Source: Komagataeibacter diospyri (lineage in GTDB: Bacteria; Pseudomonadota; Alphaproteobacteria; Acetobacterales; Acetobacteraceae). From it: a stretch of 64,000 nucleotides of DNA. Position numbers and translations under genes: made by a program. The stretch spans positions 62,001 to 126,000 of the forward strand of contig NZ_BDLU01000014.1 of the NCBI RefSeq assembly GCF_006538165.1, in the 5' to 3' direction. Below, piece after piece: positions 52,996-62,087 of this stretch. How positions within the stretch are numbered: position 1 is the stretch's first letter; the number at the start of each line of letters is the position of its first letter. The notes beneath the pieces were generated by a model that did not search any database, was not told the DNA's origin, and saw only the letters and a list, made by a program, of their open reading frames with translations.

Positions 52996-53772
52996 TCAAT
53001 AAGTCAGTGACGGGACGTATTCCGCCATCCATCGGCATTCATCCGACAGGTCCATGGCTGCATCTTCATCCAGTACAAATGTGCAATCAGGATGGAAATG
53101 CAGCGCGGAGGCGCTGGTCATGGGTGAAATAGCCCCTTCGATCACGCGGGCAATGATTGCAGCCTTGCCGGGACCTGTCGCCAGCAGGACGGCGCGCCTG
53201 GTTTCCAAGATTGTCCCGACACCAACAGTCAGCGCATGGTGCGGCACATTGTCCGGACAGCCGCCAAACATTTCCGCATTCTGGGCGCGCGTCGCGGGGG
53301 CAAGCCTGACACGACGGGTACGGGACGCGAAAGAAGAAAGAGGTTCGTTAAAACCGATATGGCCCGTATGACCGATCCCGAGCAGTTGCAGGTCAATACC
53401 GCCCGCGGCGCGGATCGCGGTTTCGTACCGTGCACAGGCGGCTGTTGCATCATCGGTATCACCGGGTGGCAGGTGCGTCTGCGTTGGGGGAATATCCAGA
53501 TGGCGGAACAGGTGGTGCTGCATATAGGCGCGGTATGAATGCGCCGTCCGCGCAACGAACCCGCAATATTCATCCAGATTGAACGTCGTGCAATTTGCAA
53601 GGTTGACTGGTGCATCATGAATGCGACGGACAAGCCTTCCATAAACCTGTTCCATCGTGCGCCCGGTTGCAAGTCCCAGAACGGCAGCAGGGTTATGCGC
53701 GCAGCATGTATACAGCATGTCCGCCACATGAGCGCAGGCGCTGGCCTGATCCGGGGTGATGACAAGTTTCAT
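52996..53772 (-). CDS. nagB: Glucosamine-6-phosphate deaminase
   Basis: A 258-residue enzyme converting glucosamine-6-phosphate to fructose-6-phosphate and ammonia. Motifs: LGLATGRTMEQVYGRL (phosphate loop), TTFNLDEYCG (Asp72-type general base), LLGIGHTGHIGFNEP (active-site His/Glu), LTVGVGTIL. At the E. coli Asp141 position this protein has Thr (IGHTGHIGF), where other bacteria have Asp or Asn. GGGAGGCATTC precedes the ATG, which overlaps the anmK stop (ATGA). Together they would turn recycled anhydro-MurNAc and amino sugars into glycolysis intermediates. Confidence 0.9.
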   Translation of the reverse strand: MKLVITPDQASACAHVADMLYTCCAHNPAAVLGLATGRTMEQVYGRLVRRIHDAPVNLANCTTFNLDEYCGFVARTAHSYRAYMQHHLFRHLDIPPTQTHLPPGDTDDATAACARYETAIRAAGGIDLQLLGIGHTGHIGFNEPLSSFASRTRRVRLAPATRAQNAEMFGGCPDNVPHHALTVGVGTILETRRAVLLATGPGKAAIIARVIEGAISPMTSASALHFHPDCTFVLDEDAAMDLSDECRWMAEYVPSLTY

Positions 53773-54899
53773 GAATGCCTCCCGCTGGTTGCATGGACCC
53801 ATGATGGTACAGGCATAAGCCCGGCACAGGTCAGGCGGCCACCGGACAGGCCATTCGGTCCTCCCGTGATCGTGGGTGCGGATAGCGGCAGTCCGCGCAC
53901 ACTGCGTGCGGCAAGAAAGCCGAAACATTGCGCTTCCAGCGTATCACCGTTCCAGCCAAGATGATCCACTGTTTCGACCGGAACCTGCAATGCGGCCTGC
54001 AATCCCTGCATGAGCACAGGATTATGTCGCCCACCGCCACAGACATACCAGCGTGTGGGTCTTGCGGGCAGCGGCGTGCGACGGACAGCTTCGATGGTGA
54101 AGGCGGCGAGTGTCGCTGCACCATCCACCGGTGTGCAGGCGGCCACCCGATCCAGGGCCATGGCAAATGTCTGGCGATCCAGTGATTTTGGGGCAGGGCG
54201 GGCAAAATAGGGGGCAGACAGCAACTGTTCCACAATAGCCCAGTTGACCGTGCCCGCGCGCGCCAGTTGCCCGTCAATATCGCATGCCGTGCCGGTATGG
54301 CACAGTGCCCAGTCATCAAGCAGGGCATTGCCCGGTCCGGTGTCACAGGCATGGATCGTACCGTCCGCATCAATAAACGTAACATTTGCAACGCCGCCGA
54401 TATTCAGCACGGCAACCGGCCCCGGTACGCCATGCAGCAGGGCTGCGTGAAACCACGGCACCAGTGGCGCGCCTTCGCCGCCTGCGGCTACATCGGCGCT
54501 ACGGAAATCATGGATGACAGCCTGTCCTGTCGCCCGTGACAGCATTTCCGCATCGCCAATCTGCCATGTCCGGTGGCGATCAGGCGCATGCAGGATGGTC
54601 TGGCCATGAAAACCGATCAGGTCGATACCCGGCACAAGGGCCTGTAACTGCCGCACCGCGTTGATATGATGACGGGTAATGTCCTGTTCGACCGCTTTCA
54701 GTTCGGGATCATCGAAGGACAGGGTGGGCGCTTGGTCCAGGATGCGGCGCGCGCGCTGACGCAAGTCTGCCGTATAGGGCAGGCTGGTATCCGGTCCCAA
54801 CCCTGTGATCCGCTCACCATCGGTGTGGATCACGGCGGCGTCCACACCGTCAAGTGACGTACCGCTCATAAGACCAATGACCGTAAGCATAGGCTTCAT
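53769..54899 (-). CDS. anmK: Anhydro-N-acetylmuramic acid kinase
   Basis: A 376-residue sugar kinase. GLMSGTSLDGVDAAV (phosphate-1), LNIGGVANVTFIDADGTIHACDTGPGNALLDDW and YVCGGGRHNPVLMQGL are diagnostic. It opens the 1,6-anhydro ring and phosphorylates anhMurNAc to MurNAc-6-phosphate, the substrate of MurQ encoded 3.3 kb away. It overlaps nagB by four bases. Length matches E. coli AnmK. Confidence 0.95.
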   Translation of the reverse strand: MKPMLTVIGLMSGTSLDGVDAAVIHTDGERITGLGPDTSLPYTADLRQRARRILDQAPTLSFDDPELKAVEQDITRHHINAVRQLQALVPGIDLIGFHGQTILHAPDRHRTWQIGDAEMLSRATGQAVIHDFRSADVAAGGEGAPLVPWFHAALLHGVPGPVAVLNIGGVANVTFIDADGTIHACDTGPGNALLDDWALCHTGTACDIDGQLARAGTVNWAIVEQLLSAPYFARPAPKSLDRQTFAMALDRVAACTPVDGAATLAAFTIEAVRRTPLPARPTRWYVCGGGRHNPVLMQGLQAALQVPVETVDHLGWNGDTLEAQCFGFLAARSVRGLPLSAPTITGGPNGLSGGRLTCAGLMPVPSWVHATSGRHS

Positions 54900-55162
54900 G
54901 CCTGATCCTCGACACCCTGAATTTCACCGCGGTATTATAAAGATCAATGCGATGGAATGAAAATGTGACGTAATCATCCTGTTATGCGGGGCAGGGGAGG
55001 GCGTCTCTATTTTTGCATGAAGCAGTGTGTAAGGTTCAGCATGCCTGATGTAGATATTCCGCCATGATCTATGTCATGGCCGCCATATTGCGTAGGTTTT
55101 CCTGTTATTACTCATGTTCCAAAGGGAGGTCATGCAGATGAGGCACGATCATGAACCCAAAA

Positions 55163-55215
55163 TAGTTTCCGGTGAAAGGAATGGCCACGCTCCTTAAAGG
55201 CTTCGAAGAACGTCA
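55163..55215. repeat. Two-hairpin repeat, remnant
   Basis: AGTTTCCGGTGAAAGG, CTCCTTAAAGGCTTC and GAAGAACGTCAG resemble the repeat's AGTTTTTGGTGAAGC ... GCTTCAAAGAACGCC order. Strongly decayed. Confidence 0.35.
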
Positions 55216-55457
55216 GTTTATAGACTAATAAGTATATTAATAGCAATATCACAGCATGCTTTATATACGACTGATCTGTTTATATATTCGTGCCGGTAAT
55301 GTTCGTTCTGATATAATAATGTAATTATTGTATGTTCCCTGTGGAATAATGGCTGTTATTTGATTCCCTGATCAGGAAGGGATATAAAGAACTTATGCTA
55401 TACATGCATGAAAAACATATCAGGAATGCTTCAAAATTATAACAACATGTTATTACG

Positions 55458-55463
55458 TATAAT
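55458..55463 (+). promoter_or_regulatory. Candidate -10 element of the H-NOX unit
   Basis: TATAAT occurs 45 bases before the H-NOX ATG inside an AT-rich stretch (ATTACGTATAATATATAC). A -35 at the usual spacing is not clear, so an activator may be needed. Confidence 0.4.
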
Positions 55464-55508
55464 ATATACACCTTTATAAATCAGAACATTCCAAGGGGAT
55501 CGGGATAA

Positions 55509-56039
55509 ATGAAGGGTGTTGTTTTCAATATTCTTGAAGAAGTCGTGGAAAAGAATCACGGCGCAGAAGCATGGGACGAACTGCTTGACGCCGCCAACGT
55601 AGGCGGGACCTACACTTCACTTGGCAGTTACCCCGACACGGACATGCTGGCCCTTGTGCAGGCGGCTTCAGCCCATCTGGGCATAACACCGGCAGAACTG
55701 CTGCATCGCTTCGGGCGTGACGCCATGCCCATTCTCAAGGAACGCTACCCCGCACTGTTCAATGCGCATCCCAATTCACGCAGCTTCATCCTGAGCGTGA
55801 ACAGCATCATCCACCCCGAGGTGCTCAAACTCTATCCCGGTGCCATATGTCCGCACTTCCAGATGAAGGAAAATGCGGATGGCACGCTGGATATGACATA
55901 CAGCTCCCAGCGCCATCTGATCGACCTTGCGCAGGGATTCATACTTGGCGCCGCCGACGTGTTTGGCGAACGGGCGACTGTCGAACGTTTTCCACCCGGT
56001 TCGGACAAGGAAAACGTATTGCGGGTAAAATGGCAGTGA
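55509..56039 (+). CDS. H-NOX heme NO/O2-binding sensor protein
   Basis: A 176-residue cytosolic H-NOX domain. MKGVVFNILEEVVEKNHG is the family start; the proximal heme ligand is His102 in NSIIHPEVLKLYP; Pro115 is conserved; the heme-propionate motif Y-x-S-x-R is Tyr131-Ser133-Arg135. In bacteria such proteins bind NO with high affinity and regulate a partner kinase or c-di-GMP enzyme encoded next door. Here the partner GAF-GGDEF-EAL gene starts ten bases before this stop, so the two are translationally coupled. The usual distal Tyr of O2-binding H-NOX proteins was not identified. Confidence 0.95.
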   Translation: MKGVVFNILEEVVEKNHGAEAWDELLDAANVGGTYTSLGSYPDTDMLALVQAASAHLGITPAELLHRFGRDAMPILKERYPALFNAHPNSRSFILSVNSIIHPEVLKLYPGAICPHFQMKENADGTLDMTYSSQRHLIDLAQGFILGAADVFGERATVERFPPGSDKENVLRVKWQ

Positions 56040-57936
56040 GCGCGCATCCTGCACCGGCGGCAGATACGCCGGATTATGAAGCCCTGTACCAGCGCATCCG
56101 GCGGCGCTATGAACGTGAACGCATGGTTCGCAAGGAAGCCGAACGCATTGCGGAAGAGGGCCTGAGCCAGCTTTACGCCCGCAACCGCCAGCAGGCCCTG
56201 ATGGAAGCCGTGGCGGCACAGGCCAATAGCGGTGCGTCGGTGGAGGATATCATACGCTTCGCCTTTACGCAGGCGTGTGAGATGGGGCCATGGTGCATGG
56301 CGCTGGCATGGATGCCTGATGCAGCGGGCAACAGCCGCATGTTCAGGCTGGCCGATCGCTTTTCTTCAGGCCATGAACATGCGGCGGCGGGGCGCGCCAT
56401 GCCTGTGGGCCGGGACAATGTGCTGTTGCCAAGCCTGTGCGCACGCCTGCAGATCGAGACAGGGCCGCTGTGGCTGGTTGGCGAAGGCACGCGCGCAGGC
56501 ATGCAGACGGTGGTGCTGGTGCCGGTCATGGTTATGGGCCGTATGGCGATCGTGCTGGAATTTGGTGCACGGTCCCGGCAGGAAGACGATCCGTATTCCC
56601 TTGCCATGTTCTCCAACATCGGCCGTCAGCTTTCCCATGTGCTGGAGCGCCGTGAAACCGCCGAACGCCTGCAGTACGAAGCCACGCACGACGCCCTGAC
56701 CGGCCTGCCCAACCGCAAGGCGTTCCTGGCCCGGCTGGACGCCCTCATGACAGGTGACCGGGCTACGGGCCGCGACCATGCCGTCATGTTCATCGATCTG
56801 GACAAGTTCAAGCTGGTGAATGACAGCTTTGGCCACCATACGGGTGATCTTTTCCTGATCGAGATTGTAAGCCGCCTGCGCCGGGTGTTCGAGACGGAGC
56901 AGGACTGCTTCATGGCCCGTCTGGGGGGGATGAGTTTACCGCCATCATCAGTGTAGCCCGCGATCGTGCGGCGCTGGGGGATATTGGCACGCGAATCTGT
57001 CAGGAACTGGAAGGTGAGATGGTGATTGACGGCCATCATCTGCAGCCATCGGCCAGTATCGGTATTGTCACGTCGGACCATGACCACACATCCTCGGCTG
57101 ACATCGTGCGCGATGCGGACCTGGCGATGTATGAGGCCAAGCGGCGTGGTGGCGACCGGGTCATCCTGTTCACGCCCGACCTGCTGGCACGCATGCACCA
57201 TGCCCTGATTTTACAGAGCGAACTGCCAGACGCACTGCAACGCAATGAATTCGTGCTGCACTACCAGCCGATAATGGACGTATCCGACGGGCGCGTGACC
57301 GGGCATGAAGCGCTGCTGCGCTGGCGTGACCGTCGTGGCGTGCTGCATGACCCGGCAGCCTTCATCCGCAATGCGGAAGAAACGGGGTTGATCGTGCCCA
57401 TCGGCCACTGGGTGCTGGAACAGGCCATGCACCATGCGGTTGCCTGCAATCAGGCACAGCCTGCGGGGCAGGCCATTGCCGTGCATGTCAACTTGAGCGC
57501 CAGCCAGTTGCGTCTGTCCGAACTGCCTGGACAGTTACGCCAACTGCTGGAGCGGACCGGCGCACGCGCCGAATGGATCGTGCTGGAAATAACCGAGGAT
57601 GCACTTCAGCCGGACATGGATGCCTCGATCCGCTCCCTTTCCGCCCTGCGTGGTGCAGGGACGCGTATTGCCATAAACAGTTTTGGCAGCGGGCAGAGTT
57701 CCCTGTCACATCTGGGCATCATGCCGTTTGACATGATCAAGACTGATCGCAGCTTTGTAAAGACCATGGGCACGCATGGTCATACGCAGGACATACTGCG
57801 CCTGATCGCTGACCTGGGCCAGCAGCTGGGCAAGGACGTGATTATCGAAGGAGTCGAGACACAGGCGGAACAGCACAGGCTGACCGCGCTGGGTTTCCGT
57901 TACATGCAGGGCTTCCATATCGGCCGCCCGGCCTGA
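56030..57936 (+). pseudogene. GAF-GGDEF-EAL c-di-GMP protein, frameshifted inside the GGDEF codons
   Basis: The ATG at 56030 (MAVSAHPAPA) begins a coiled-coil (IRRRYERERMVRKEAERIAE), a GAF-like domain (about residues 50-205), then a GGDEF domain (ATHDALTGLPNRKAFLARLD, MFIDLDKFKLVNDSFGHHTGD). At FMARLGG the sequence has seven Gs (56923-56929). Eight would read LGGDEFTAIISVARD; with seven, translation ends at 56956. The second frame carries the rest of GGDEF (SIGIV) and a whole EAL domain to 57936 (QPIMDV, HEALLRWRD, IIEGVET, MQGFHIGRP). The loop normally DDFGTG is NSFGSG, so the EAL active site looks impaired; the I-site RxxD is TEQD. With the G restored the protein is 635 residues and likely a diguanylate cyclase. 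Confidence 0.85.
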
Positions 57937-58112
57937 GACGGATGCCGGCAGCACCTGTATGGTGTTACCGGCAGGCGGCCTGTGCCTGTGCTCTTTTGTG
58001 CGGCCTGAATATGTTGGCCGTGAATTTTCACCATGGCCCTGGGCAGACCCCACCATGTGCCACGTCGGGATTACCTATCCACGGCACACCAGTCGTTAAT
58101 GGAAAACAGAAG

Positions 58113-58151
58113 TTTTGGGTGCTGGCTTTTTTGTAAAGCCAGCACCCAAAA
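58113..58151. terminator. Strong bidirectional terminator
   Basis: A 17-bp perfect stem (TTTTGGGTGCTGGCTTT with its complement at 58135-58151) around five bases, with T-runs on both strands. It lies between the convergent GGDEF-EAL and murQ genes. Confidence 0.9.
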
Positions 58152-58165
58152 ACCGCCTGTCATAT

Positions 58166-59122
58166 TCATATGCAGGCAGTTTTGTCATCAGGCTTTCGCA
58201 GCGGTCTTCTGGCAGGTTGTCCAAGGATCGAACGCAGGTTGCCATCATGCGCCCTGAGCAGCGTTTCAATCTGATCGGCGGGAATGCCCGAACAGATCAT
58301 GACGGCACGTTTGACATTGAACCCCGTGGCATCCAGGGCGTGCAGCGCCTGCTGTTCAGTGCTGCCGGTCAGGCTGCGGACCATGCGGCACGCTCTGTCC
58401 CGCAGCTTGGCATTGACCACCCGCATGTCAACCATCTGTCCCCGATAGGCATGGCCCATACGGATCATGAGTGTTGTGGAAATCAGGTTAAGGGCGGCTT
58501 TCTGCGCGGTGCCAGCCTTCAGCCTTGTTGATCCGGAAATGACTTCCGGCCCCGTTACCACCGCAATGCCCTGTTCCGCCACGTCCAGCAGCCTCCCGCC
58601 ACGATTGCACGCGATGCCGATGGTCAGGCTGCCGGCAGTACGCGCTGCCATAATCGCGGCACAGGTATAAGGGGTGGACCCACTGGCCGCGATGCCCAGC
58701 ACCACGTCATCGGGGCCGGGATTATGGGCCAGTATGTCCGTGCGGGCCACGTCCTCGCGGTCCTCGGCTCCTTCCGCTGCCTGATGGACAGCGTCGTTCC
58801 CGCCCGCCAGCAGCAGGACAAGGCGTTCCGGCTCCCAGCCAAAGGTGGGAAGCAGTTCCACTCCATCCTGCATGCCGATCCGCCCGGACGTACCCGCACC
58901 GACATAGAACAGCCGTCCCCCCGCCAGAAGCCGGGGCAGGGCGCTGTTCACCGCGCGTTCCAGTTCCGGGGTCGTGGCCCGGACGGCGGCGATGGCGCTC
59001 ATCTGTGATTCCACCAGCGCATCCAGCACCGAACCGACAGGCCAGATGTCCACATCCGCGTAACGGGGGTCCTGCCCTTCTGTCGCGATGGGCGGGGTAG
59101 GAATGTTGTGGTTAAGGGTCAT
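58166..59122 (-). CDS. murQ: N-acetylmuramic acid 6-phosphate etherase
   Basis: A 318-residue SIS-domain enzyme. LFYVGAGTSGRIGMQDGVEL, LAGGNDAVHQAAEGAEDREDVAR (catalytic Glu region), VVLGIAASGSTPYTCAAI and GTAQKAALNLISTTLMIRMGH are diagnostic of MurQ. It cleaves the lactyl ether of MurNAc-6-phosphate to GlcNAc-6-phosphate and lactate, downstream of AnmK. It follows the beta-lactamase-family gene after 37 bases and is followed by the terminator at 58113. Confidence 0.95.
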   Translation of the reverse strand: MTLNHNIPTPPIATEGQDPRYADVDIWPVGSVLDALVESQMSAIAAVRATTPELERAVNSALPRLLAGGRLFYVGAGTSGRIGMQDGVELLPTFGWEPERLVLLLAGGNDAVHQAAEGAEDREDVARTDILAHNPGPDDVVLGIAASGSTPYTCAAIMAARTAGSLTIGIACNRGGRLLDVAEQGIAVVTGPEVISGSTRLKAGTAQKAALNLISTTLMIRMGHAYRGQMVDMRVVNAKLRDRACRMVRSLTGSTEQQALHALDATGFNVKRAVMICSGIPADQIETLLRAHDGNLRSILGQPARRPLRKPDDKTACI

Positions 59123-59159
59123 GTAACCTGACTTGCTGCAAGTGAATGAAATAAAGGCA

Positions 59160-60344
59160 TCAGCCCCGGGACGGGATCAGCGCAAGGGCCGCGGCTGTCG
59201 CAACATCATGGCGCAGGCGCACGACATTGCCGTGACCATCCGGATGCAGGCGACTGGTCAGGATCACGACATAGCTGTCACTGCCCGGATCCAGCCACAG
59301 CGACGTGCCGGTAAATCCGGTATGGCCGAAAGACCCCACGGGAAACCTGTCCCCCCGGGCGGAGGAATAATGCGTGGAAATATCCCATCCCAGCCCGCGC
59401 AGGTCGGTTTTGCCCTGTGGCTGCCCTGCGGTGGTCATCAGCATGACGGTGTCGCGTTTCAGGGGATAGGCCGATGGTCTGCCTGCACGGCGGTCCAGCA
59501 GCGCCTGTGCATACAGACACATGTCGCTGGCCGTGGAAAACAGGCCCGCATGGCCCGCGACCCCGCCCATCCGCCTGGTCGAGGGATCATTGACCTGACC
59601 GCGCAGCATACGGCCCCGTTCATCGGTCTGGGTGGGGGCAATGCGCGCGGACCATGTGGCGGGTGGCAGGAACCGTGACTGCCGCAGGTCCAGCGGCGTC
59701 AGGAGGAAACGCGTGGCATAGGCATCCAGCGTCATGCCGGACAGTTTTTCCACCAGGAAACCCAGCGTAATGAAATTGATGTCGCTGTAAACGAACCCGC
59801 TGCCCGGTGGCTGCGTGGGGGCAGCCTGCATGGTCAGGTCGAAGGCCGCGTCATGTCCCTGCCACGGGTGGGTCAGGTCCAGGTCGGGCGGCAGGCCGGA
59901 ATAATGGGTCAGCAGATGCCGGATGGTAATGGTGGATTTCCCCGCGGCGGCAAATTGCGGCAGGTAGCGCGAGACAGGATCATCAAGCCTGAACCGGCCC
60001 TGTTCCCATAACTGCATGATACAGGGCGCTGTAATGACCGGTTTGGTCAGGGACGCCATGTCGAACACCGTGTCCCATGTCATGGTCTCAGGGGTCGGGG
60101 TTACGACGCGTCTGCCGTACACGGCCCGATGCACGACCTGCTGGTCATGGCCTATGGCGCAGACAACGCCGGGTGCTTCCCCCTGTGTCACGGCCAGCTG
60201 CAACCGGCGGTCCACATCATGCATGTCCGGGGCAGGTGGCGGCCCGCCATGCGCATGCGGGGCACAGGCGGTCAGGGTCGCGGCACCTGTCAGCATCAGG
60301 ACATGACGGCGCTTCAGCCGGGGGGCGGCTGGAAAAACATGCAT
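59160..60344 (-). CDS. Serine beta-lactamase-family hydrolase (lipoprotein)
   Basis: A 394-residue class C-type serine hydrolase. After a lipoprotein-like signal (RRHVLMLTGAATLTACAP) come the nucleophile motif DMASLTKPV (S-x-x-K), FVYSDINFITLGF (Y-S-D) and FGHTGFTGTSL (H-T-G). Related proteins in murein recycling clusters of other bacteria (for example Bacillus AmlB/YbbE) sit beside MurQ, and the same pairing here suggests a role on muropeptides rather than antibiotic resistance. I chose the ATG at 60344 at the start of the signal peptide. It probably shares a transcript with murQ. Confidence 0.85.
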   Translation of the reverse strand: MHVFPAAPRLKRRHVLMLTGAATLTACAPHAHGGPPPAPDMHDVDRRLQLAVTQGEAPGVVCAIGHDQQVVHRAVYGRRVVTPTPETMTWDTVFDMASLTKPVITAPCIMQLWEQGRFRLDDPVSRYLPQFAAAGKSTITIRHLLTHYSGLPPDLDLTHPWQGHDAAFDLTMQAAPTQPPGSGFVYSDINFITLGFLVEKLSGMTLDAYATRFLLTPLDLRQSRFLPPATWSARIAPTQTDERGRMLRGQVNDPSTRRMGGVAGHAGLFSTASDMCLYAQALLDRRAGRPSAYPLKRDTVMLMTTAGQPQGKTDLRGLGWDISTHYSSARGDRFPVGSFGHTGFTGTSLWLDPGSDSYVVILTSRLHPDGHGNVVRLRHDVATAAALALIPSRG

Positions 60345-60623
60345 GTTGCAAAAGATCCGTTGAAAGGCGACATGCCAGATGCCTGATCCATAAACGATAC
60401 CATCATCCCCGCTGCCATGACAACGATCCGTTCCGCCAGACGGGCCGGGGGCAGCAGGCTGCACGAAAGCGGGAAAAGCCCGTCCGGATACGGTGACATG
60501 ACCGGGTGGACCGGACCTGTGCGCAGGGCGGGGATTAAACCGTTCCGGTTTCGGGCGGTCCGGCTCTTTCATATGGGAATGCTCTGGCCATATGGTGTGC
60601 CTTCATGACGTGATGGAACCGGT

Positions 60624-62087
60624 ATGTCCGCAACTGATCTCTCGATTATCTGTATCTATTGCCTGACCCTGCCCTTTGTTGCGTTTGCCCTGTCGGGGCG
60701 GCAGGATTCCGTTTCCACCTATGTCGGCGGCAGGCATGATCTGCCATGGTGGGCCATCTGCCTGTCTCTTGTCGCGACGGAAACTTCCACCCTGACCATC
60801 ATCAGCATACCCGGCATCGCCTATGGCGGCGGCATGGTGTTTGCGGGACTTGGGGTGGGGTATGTCATCGGGCGCGCCCTGGTGGCGTGGCTGTTCCTGC
60901 CGCATTATTTTTCCGGACAGGTGGGCAGCGTATATCAGTATCTGGGCCAGCGTTTCGGGCAGGCGATGGAGCGCACCGTATCCGTCACGTTCCTGGTAAC
61001 GCGCGTACTGGCCGAAGGAATCAGGCTGTTTGCGGGCATGCTGCCGGTTGCGGCCATCCTGTCCGCCATGGATTTCCCGCTGCCACAATGGCTGGTCATG
61101 GTGGCGATTGTCGGGCTGACGCTGGGCTACACGATGCTGGGTGGCCTGCGGGCCGTGGTGTGGTCCGATGCGATACAGCTGGTCGTGTACGTGGTGGGGA
61201 CGGCGGCCTGTATCGTAATGCTGTACCATCATGCAACGGACCTGCAGATCCATATGCTGCGTCATTCCAACAGGTTCCATCTGTTCCATAAATCCCGCCT
61301 GTATTTCCTTGATCCCTATACGCCGTACGCCGCCATGATCGGTGGGGCGATCATGGCCATGGCGTCGCACGGCACGGACCAGTTGCTGGTGCAGCGCGTG
61401 CTGGCGGCGCGAACGCTGGCGGATGCCAGAAAGGCGCTGGTGGGCAGTGGTGTCGTGGTTGGCTGCCTGTTTGCCATGCTGTCGCTGGTGGGCATGCTGC
61501 TATGGGCGCGTAATGACGAACGCCCGCTTGCCGCCATGGGGTTGCCGACGTCGGACGCGCTGTTTCCTGATTTTATCGTGCATGGCCTGCCACAGGGGCT
61601 TGCGGGGCTGCTGGTCGCGGGTCTGCTGAGTGCGACGATGGGCTCGCTTTCCGCAACCCTCAATGCCATGACCAGTGCGACATTGCTGGATTTTTCCACG
61701 CCCTGCCGAACCATGGCGCGGTGGGTGCGCCTGTCTCCGCTGGGCTTCGCACGGTTGGTGACCGTGCTGTGGGCGGTCGTGCTGGTGCTGGCCGCACTCG
61801 GGTTTGCCCACAGCCATGGCCCGGCGGTGGTATTCGGCCTGTCGGTGGCGTCATGTGCCTATGGGCCGATGCTCGGGGCTTTTGCATTCGCCATGTTCAG
61901 TCGGCAGGCGGACAGGCGTGACGTGCTGCCCGCGTTCATCGTGACACTGGCGGTCGTGTGCGGCGCCATGGTTTTCTGGCGGCCGTATGGCCATGCCATC
62001 GCCTTTACGTGGCTGGTGCCGCTGGGTGGCGCCATCATGCTGGCCTGCGTGTGGTTCATGCGGGGTATCCGGCAGGGACGGGCGTGA
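60624..62087 (+). CDS. Sodium:solute symporter (SSS) family transporter
   Basis: A 487-residue protein with about 13 membrane helices. STYVGGRHDLPWWAICLSLVATETST is the N-terminal SSS pattern; GVGYVIGRALVAWLFLPHYF, GGLRAVVWSDAIQLVVY and HGTDQLLVQRVLAARTLADARKA follow in the family order. Members carry sugars, amino acids or sialic acid with Na+. It diverges from the beta-lactamase-family gene of the murein-recycling set, so MurNAc, anhydro-sugars or a muropeptide part is a plausible load. Confidence 0.88.
   Translation: MSATDLSIICIYCLTLPFVAFALSGRQDSVSTYVGGRHDLPWWAICLSLVATETSTLTIISIPGIAYGGGMVFAGLGVGYVIGRALVAWLFLPHYFSGQVGSVYQYLGQRFGQAMERTVSVTFLVTRVLAEGIRLFAGMLPVAAILSAMDFPLPQWLVMVAIVGLTLGYTMLGGLRAVVWSDAIQLVVYVVGTAACIVMLYHHATDLQIHMLRHSNRFHLFHKSRLYFLDPYTPYAAMIGGAIMAMASHGTDQLLVQRVLAARTLADARKALVGSGVVVGCLFAMLSLVGMLLWARNDERPLAAMGLPTSDALFPDFIVHGLPQGLAGLLVAGLLSATMGSLSATLNAMTSATLLDFSTPCRTMARWVRLSPLGFARLVTVLWAVVLVLAALGFAHSHGPAVVFGLSVASCAYGPMLGAFAFAMFSRQADRRDVLPAFIVTLAVVCGAMVFWRPYGHAIAFTWLVPLGGAIMLACVWFMRGIRQGRA

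Follow-up and report, generated by a model that had tools for sequence, protein, structure and literature searches.

The locus considered here raises the question of how an intact H-NOX gene comes to be followed by a partner gene whose frame is broken, apparently by a single base, in the run of Gs that encodes its GGDEF motif. Such a break could be one position of a switch, a fault of the assembly, or the mark of a gene that its bearer is losing. The matter bears on cellulose, since the cellulose synthase of Komagataeibacter is described as being under c-di-GMP control (PMC7347698), and, in Legionella and Shewanella, the response to NO is described as the action of H-NOX on a DGC/PDE enzyme (PMC8738867). 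The window, by which we mean the whole stretch analysed, is 64,000 nucleotides of Komagataeibacter diospyri (NZ_BDLU01000014.1, positions 62,001 to 126,000), and its relevant features, numbered from its first letter, are as follows:

55509–56039, plus strand: intact gene for a 176-aa H-NOX (haem NO-binding) protein (ORF, Pfam HNOB, match to 6ocv)
56030–56956, plus strand: upstream fragment of the partner, with a weak GAF_2 and the first half of GGDEF (ORF, Pfam)
56923–56929, plus strand: run of seven Gs on the GGDEF codons, site of the frame change (letters, run check)
56923–57936, plus strand: downstream fragment of the partner, in the other frame, with the GGDEF motif, the second half of GGDEF and the whole of EAL (ORF, Pfam)
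57019–57936, plus strand: candidate internal start ATG, with GGAAGGTGAG just before it, which would give a 305-aa EAL protein
54972–58217, no strand: operon and flanks, the stretch missing at the corresponding site in relatives (blastn, gene spacing)

The product of the first gene matches HNOB (PF07700) with 139.4 bits against a cut-off of 25.5, over positions 1–162 of the 163 in the profile, and matches 6ocv with an E value of 2.5e-23, IHPEVLKLYP and YSSQR being aligned with IHVEVYKLYP and YQSKR. The aligned histidine and YSSQR we take to be the haem-ligand and YxSxR positions. With HNOB present at full length, together with the His/YxSxR motif, the gene is predicted to encode a binder of haem and NO. 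The ATG of the partner, at 56030, overlaps the end of this gene. The arrangement resembles that of Legionella pneumophila (LPG1056/LPG1057) and Shewanella woodyi (SWOO_2751/SWOO_2750), in which an H-NOX gene lies immediately 5' of a GGDEF-EAL partner, and that of another alphaproteobacterium, Paracoccus denitrificans (PDEN_3719/PDEN_3720), in which H-NOX adjoins a diguanylate cyclase (all in PMC8738867). Unlike the Legionella and Shewanella pairs, the partner in the window strain is broken and the Komagataeibacter operon is known from its genes alone; unlike the Paracoccus pair, which is listed with a DGC partner, the partner here is a GGDEF-EAL protein, and a broken one.

The break itself can be read directly from the letters, which give exactly seven Gs at 56923–56929, over the GGDEF codons. 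Upstream of it, the partner contains GAF_2 at 26.6 bits, a weak match under its 28.6 cut-off, and positions 1–81 of the GGDEF profile; its frame then reads ...FMARLGGMSLPPSSV and meets a stop at 56954–56956, so that the truncated product has 308 aa and its C-terminal end lies inside GGDEF. The frame whose codons begin at 56923 reads GGDEFTAII... and stays open until the stop at 57936, and the ORF from 57019 within it contains positions 117–160 of the GGDEF profile and the EAL domain. GGDEF and EAL, which share one open frame in K. xylinus CGMCC 21569 (G018), are therefore split in the window strain at the G-run. The first-pass annotation had described just this: seven Gs where the GGDEF motif of the partner starts, a shifted frame that ends at a stop at 56956, and another frame in which GGDEF is completed and EAL is full-length. 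The letters, the ORFs and the Pfam matches agree with it, and the operon is an H-NOX gene with a GAF-GGDEF-EAL partner broken on its catalytic motif.

What the partner could have done when whole is less clear on the EAL side. Loop 6 of the downstream fragment reads INSFGSGQSSL, and the intact G018 partner has NSFG at this point, as against the usual DDFG, found in 5m3c, although 4rnf, the second-best PDB match, has NNFG. A degenerate loop 6 is reported to abolish the activity of a K. xylinus EAL domain (PMC10333796), and the PDE domain of the Legionella partner is described as likely inactive (PMC8738867). The EAL domain may have been inactive even before the break, and an EAL-only protein from the ATG at 57019 is possible. 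The genome contains one copy of the operon; a second was looked for, and none was found. It has 20 GGDEF loci (21 matches, two of which are the halves of the split partner), and the other 19 are unsplit, so the total of c-di-GMP need not change.

Is the missing base real? A run of seven Gs is by itself nothing unusual, given that the same assembly has 86 G or C runs of at least seven in 657,275 bases at 61.3% GC; the exceptional feature of this run is the gene that it breaks. We scored the coding frame on both sides of each G or C run of at least six in four contigs (657 kb). There were 364 such runs, of which 215 were unclear, hence uninformative, and 149 lay in confidently coding sequence on both sides; 145 of these 149 were in frame and four were shifted. 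Three of the four shifts fall at the ends of adjacent genes, which we take to be accB/accC, sdhA/sdhB and yebC/ruvC (recognised from their translations rather than by family searches), and the fourth is the tract at 56923–56929, the only shift within a gene among the 149. A general homopolymer error of the assembly was rejected on this count, and a systematic fault is unlikely.

An error confined to this one tract, with the partner whole in the cell, is a different matter. The assembly is a draft in 105 contigs from an unknown platform, and the downstream half of the partner looks as if nothing had broken it: it runs for 337 codons without a stop, and its dN/dS against G018, K. nataicola LMG 1536 (G006) and G017 is 0.095–0.100, compared with 0.083–0.099 for H-NOX and 0.120–0.133 for the upstream half against the same three relatives. 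An open downstream half with a low dN/dS means that the lesion is recent, or reversible, or not real. Against the last of these stand the 145 confident runs in frame, with the three further shifts at gene ends, all 10 of the confident runs of at least eight in the same assembly, which are in frame, and the C37 DGC of the same genome, in which the eight-G form of LGGDEF, CTG GGG GGG GAT, is read in frame. An isolated error is on this evidence unlikely, although it deserves to be kept in mind, and the seven-G break looks like a real and recent lesion.

Whether the tract is more than a lesion can be judged from the same operon in other species. HNOB was found in six of the 19 Komagataeibacter species genomes, the window genome included, either in the operon or in a remnant of it. 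Only G018 has both genes whole, with a partner of 634 aa; the other five carriers are broken, each by a lesion of its own, and, with one genome per species, any of these lesions may be a trait of the strain rather than fixed. Besides the seven-G break of the window strain, there are four differing lesions: G006 has a TGA within H-NOX and an open partner; G017 has a transposase gene (DUF772 and DDE_Tnp_1) inside the partner; G003, in which matches to the operon cover no more than its first 950 bases, has a transposase related to that of G017 at a different point of the partner; and G013 retains only the first ~50 residues of H-NOX, followed by IS21-like genes, which presumably correspond to istB and istA. 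A nonsense codon and insertion elements are not reversible by slippage. Farther afield, HNOB is present in 15 of 299 genomes of the family, and partner-like sequence adjoins H-NOX at four of the six more distant loci examined.

The first-pass annotation had seen in the tract a slippage site that would turn the cyclase on or off and had proposed comparing it across the genus, mixed codons at the motif being named there as evidence to the contrary. Mixed codons are what the comparison gives: the three relatives that retain this stretch (G006, G017 and G018) all have CTG GGC GGT GAC, and a G-tract conserved in the operon, as would be expected of a phase-variable locus, was found in none of them. 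Together with the nonsense codon and the insertion elements that break the operon elsewhere, this tells against an evolved on/off switch.

The position of the operon also sets the window strain apart. The operon lies between an anmK-like gene (53769–54899, minus strand) and a murQ-like gene (58166–59122, minus strand), and blastn pieces against relatives end at 54971 and restart at 58218. Both anmK and murQ are present in 13 of the 19 genomes, and the operon is between them only in the window genome; in the other 12, the spacing is 29 to 914 bases, save in G006. There, 3,795 bases separate the two genes (G006:C105:72952-76746), and the H-NOX gene is on another contig. The neighbours at 52996–62087 resemble an amino-sugar or MurNAc recycling cluster; the names, nagB-, anmK-, murQ-, beta-lactamase- and transporter-like, are ones that we presume from the translations. 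A strong inverted repeat, GGGTGCTGGCTTT...AAAGCCAGCACCC, unscored and with T and A runs, lies at ~58140–58165, between the operon and murQ, and is probably a two-way terminator.

G018, G006, G017 and G013 have a common neighbourhood for the operon, which differs from that of the window, and an 18-kb piece of G003 matches G018 in the operon alone. The dS of H-NOX between G018 and G006, G017, G013 and G003 is 0.080, 0.052, 0.062 and 0.148, respectively, compared with 0.259, 0.216, 0.257 and 0.775 for two core DGC genes in the same pairs. Among these five species, the synonymous divergence of the operon is therefore below that of the two core genes, which argues for transfer among them. Between G018 and G006 or G017, the operon is 96–97.5% identical, and most flanking pieces are 83–92% identical. 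A recent transfer involving the window genome was not seen: against G018, its H-NOX dS is 0.946 and its core dS 0.791, which gives its operon no younger an age than that of the core genes. In the tree of two DGC genes that was used for event counts, the carriers fall in three parts of the genus. These comparisons indicate that the operon has moved between species and has settled at differing sites.

There remains the possibility that the G-tract matters in cyclases at large rather than in this operon. The 19 genomes were searched with a pattern in which CTG and seven Gs are followed by at most two further bases and then AYGARTT; this pattern takes in only leucine coded CTG ahead of the Gs. Eleven matches were found in nine genomes, all of them in cyclases; nine have eight Gs and are in frame, and the two with seven Gs are both broken. 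The second broken tract (L152, G012:C1:1562234-1562249, minus strand) belongs to a different cyclase, a relative of the C37 gene with an N-terminal membrane region and GGDEF-EAL, in which the downstream frame is open for 374 codons. In the family of C37 and L152, with 18 loci in the genus, the motif has eight Gs in frame in four (window genome, G010, G001 and G008), mixed codons in 13, and seven Gs in G012; in another cyclase family, an eight-G LGGDEF is present in five of 19 loci, always in frame. G012 has, beyond the search pattern, a further eight-G run at an RSGGDEF motif, again in frame. A frame check of 400 kb of G012, a stretch picked for containing the seven-G tract, gave 296 G or C runs, 92 of them confident, with 88 in frame and four shifted; three of the four shifts are at gene ends, judging by the translations, and the L152 cyclase is the one shift within a gene.

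The pattern was also taken beyond the genus. In a phylum sample, 35 matches were found in 26 of 398 genomes, 33 of them outside the window genome. Among these 33, 29 have eight Gs, and all 24 of those with loci encode LGGDEF in frame (the five without a locus were left out of the inspection); the others are a nine-G WGGDEF in frame, two cases of seven Gs followed by C, with WGGDE in frame, and one seven-G match in a non-cyclase. Slipped tracts as a phylum-wide habit were rejected on the strength of the 24 inspected loci. One cyclase of this sample (L237, in G402) has an eight-G LGGDEF with a stop 42 codons past the motif and is possibly broken further downstream. A family search (397 genomes) added four matches beyond the genus, one an eight-G cyclase in frame and three non-cyclases, so that, beyond the genus, none of the 25 inspected eight-G cyclase tracts is broken at the motif. 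The enrichment of slipped tracts in the genus (two of 11 versus none of 25 inspected outside) is not significant (Fisher p 0.087), nor is the comparison of the two of 11 with none of 16 other in-frame runs of at least eight, a loosely pooled set (p 0.157). The contrast between the genus and the outside is suggestive only.

LGGDEF written as CTG GGG GGG GAY may all the same be a point at which cyclases break recurrently. A stronger version would make of it an eight-G slippery tract, built in over the catalytic site, that serves the genus as a recurrent, possibly reversible off-switch; it would strike one cyclase in one species and another in the next, with replication slippage pruning or flickering the c-di-GMP inputs, that of NO among them. 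This version is kept alive by two unrelated cyclases with a seven-G break, by the nine eight-G tracts in frame and by the open frames downstream, and we hold it to be doubtful. The narrower idea of a phase-variable contingency locus, in which slippage in the G-run turns the cyclase off and on within a population, draws on the position of the run at the very start of the catalytic motif, on the clean and conserved frame beyond it, on the unrelated G012 DGC with its seven-G break and the four genomes with eight Gs in frame, and on precedent in the same genus, in which bcsB/bcsC frameshifts turn cellulose off and further indels restore it (PMC7347698). It has to face the absence of the run from the operon motif in the three relatives that retain this motif, its presence in only five of 18 and five of 19 loci of the other two DGC families (the seven-G one counted), the single tract length in the assembly of the strain, and the weak contrast between the genus and the outside given above. 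Moreover, in the serial culture of K. intermedius described in PMC13068021, the DGC/PDE genes were unmutated save for one late event. A contingency locus is possible, but conservation lends it no support, and we regard it as improbable.

Slippage could also act on the product rather than on the gene, during transcription or translation at the G-run, so that some full-length partner would be made. The long and conserved downstream frame is what such a leak would maintain, yet a G-run that is unconserved in relatives is hard to reconcile with it, and we give it hardly any credence.

The reading that we prefer, with a probability of about 0.62, is that of an accessory NO-sensing H-NOX/diguanylate cyclase operon that moves from one species to another and is time and again broken or lost, here by a recent one-base change in a G-run. 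The operon looks like an often-lost module rather than a built-in switch. A dispensable accessory input of this kind would be lost through whichever mutation arises first, and, in the window strain, this would have been a change in length of a G-run that happens to fall on the GGDEF codons. If the base change is real, replication slippage is its most likely cause; this part of the first-pass annotation has fared better than the evolved switch, which is not supported, since the eight-G form is in frame in the C37 DGC and in other species, making a contraction plausible, and a different gene in another species (G012) likewise has the broken seven-G form. The 308-aa truncated partner, deprived of the GGDEF residues and of EAL, would have neither enzyme activity, which would leave H-NOX without an enzyme to act on and NO sensing by this H-NOX uncoupled from c-di-GMP.

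Related events are on record. In Komagataeibacter, small indels break and restore bcsB/bcsC (PMC7347698); there, the target is the machinery of cellulose export and synthesis and reversion was observed, whereas the present case concerns a signalling enzyme, for which no reversion was seen. Frameshift and slippage events are described for shaken K. intermedius (PMC13068021), and those homopolymer indels that PMC8115180 discusses are mostly intergenic. In Shigella and Yersinia pestis, genes for c-di-GMP turnover have been inactivated repeatedly, as pseudogenes or by IS elements (PMC10333796), but those losses are linked to a shift in host lifestyle, and here it is one accessory operon of a non-pathogenic cellulose producer that is concerned. 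Among open-licence papers, Komagataeibacter and H-NOX occur together in only one review, each term mentioned once, and nothing was found on H-NOX with Gluconacetobacter and c-di-GMP or on a DGC with a slipped-strand poly-G.

If the pattern is real, the input of NO to c-di-GMP would be a module that these cellulose producers keep gaining and discarding. Its role is open to experiment in K. xylinus CGMCC 21569, which retains an intact copy. The finding also suggests that the G-runs of LGGDEF motifs are a place to look when production strains lose or change their cellulose output.
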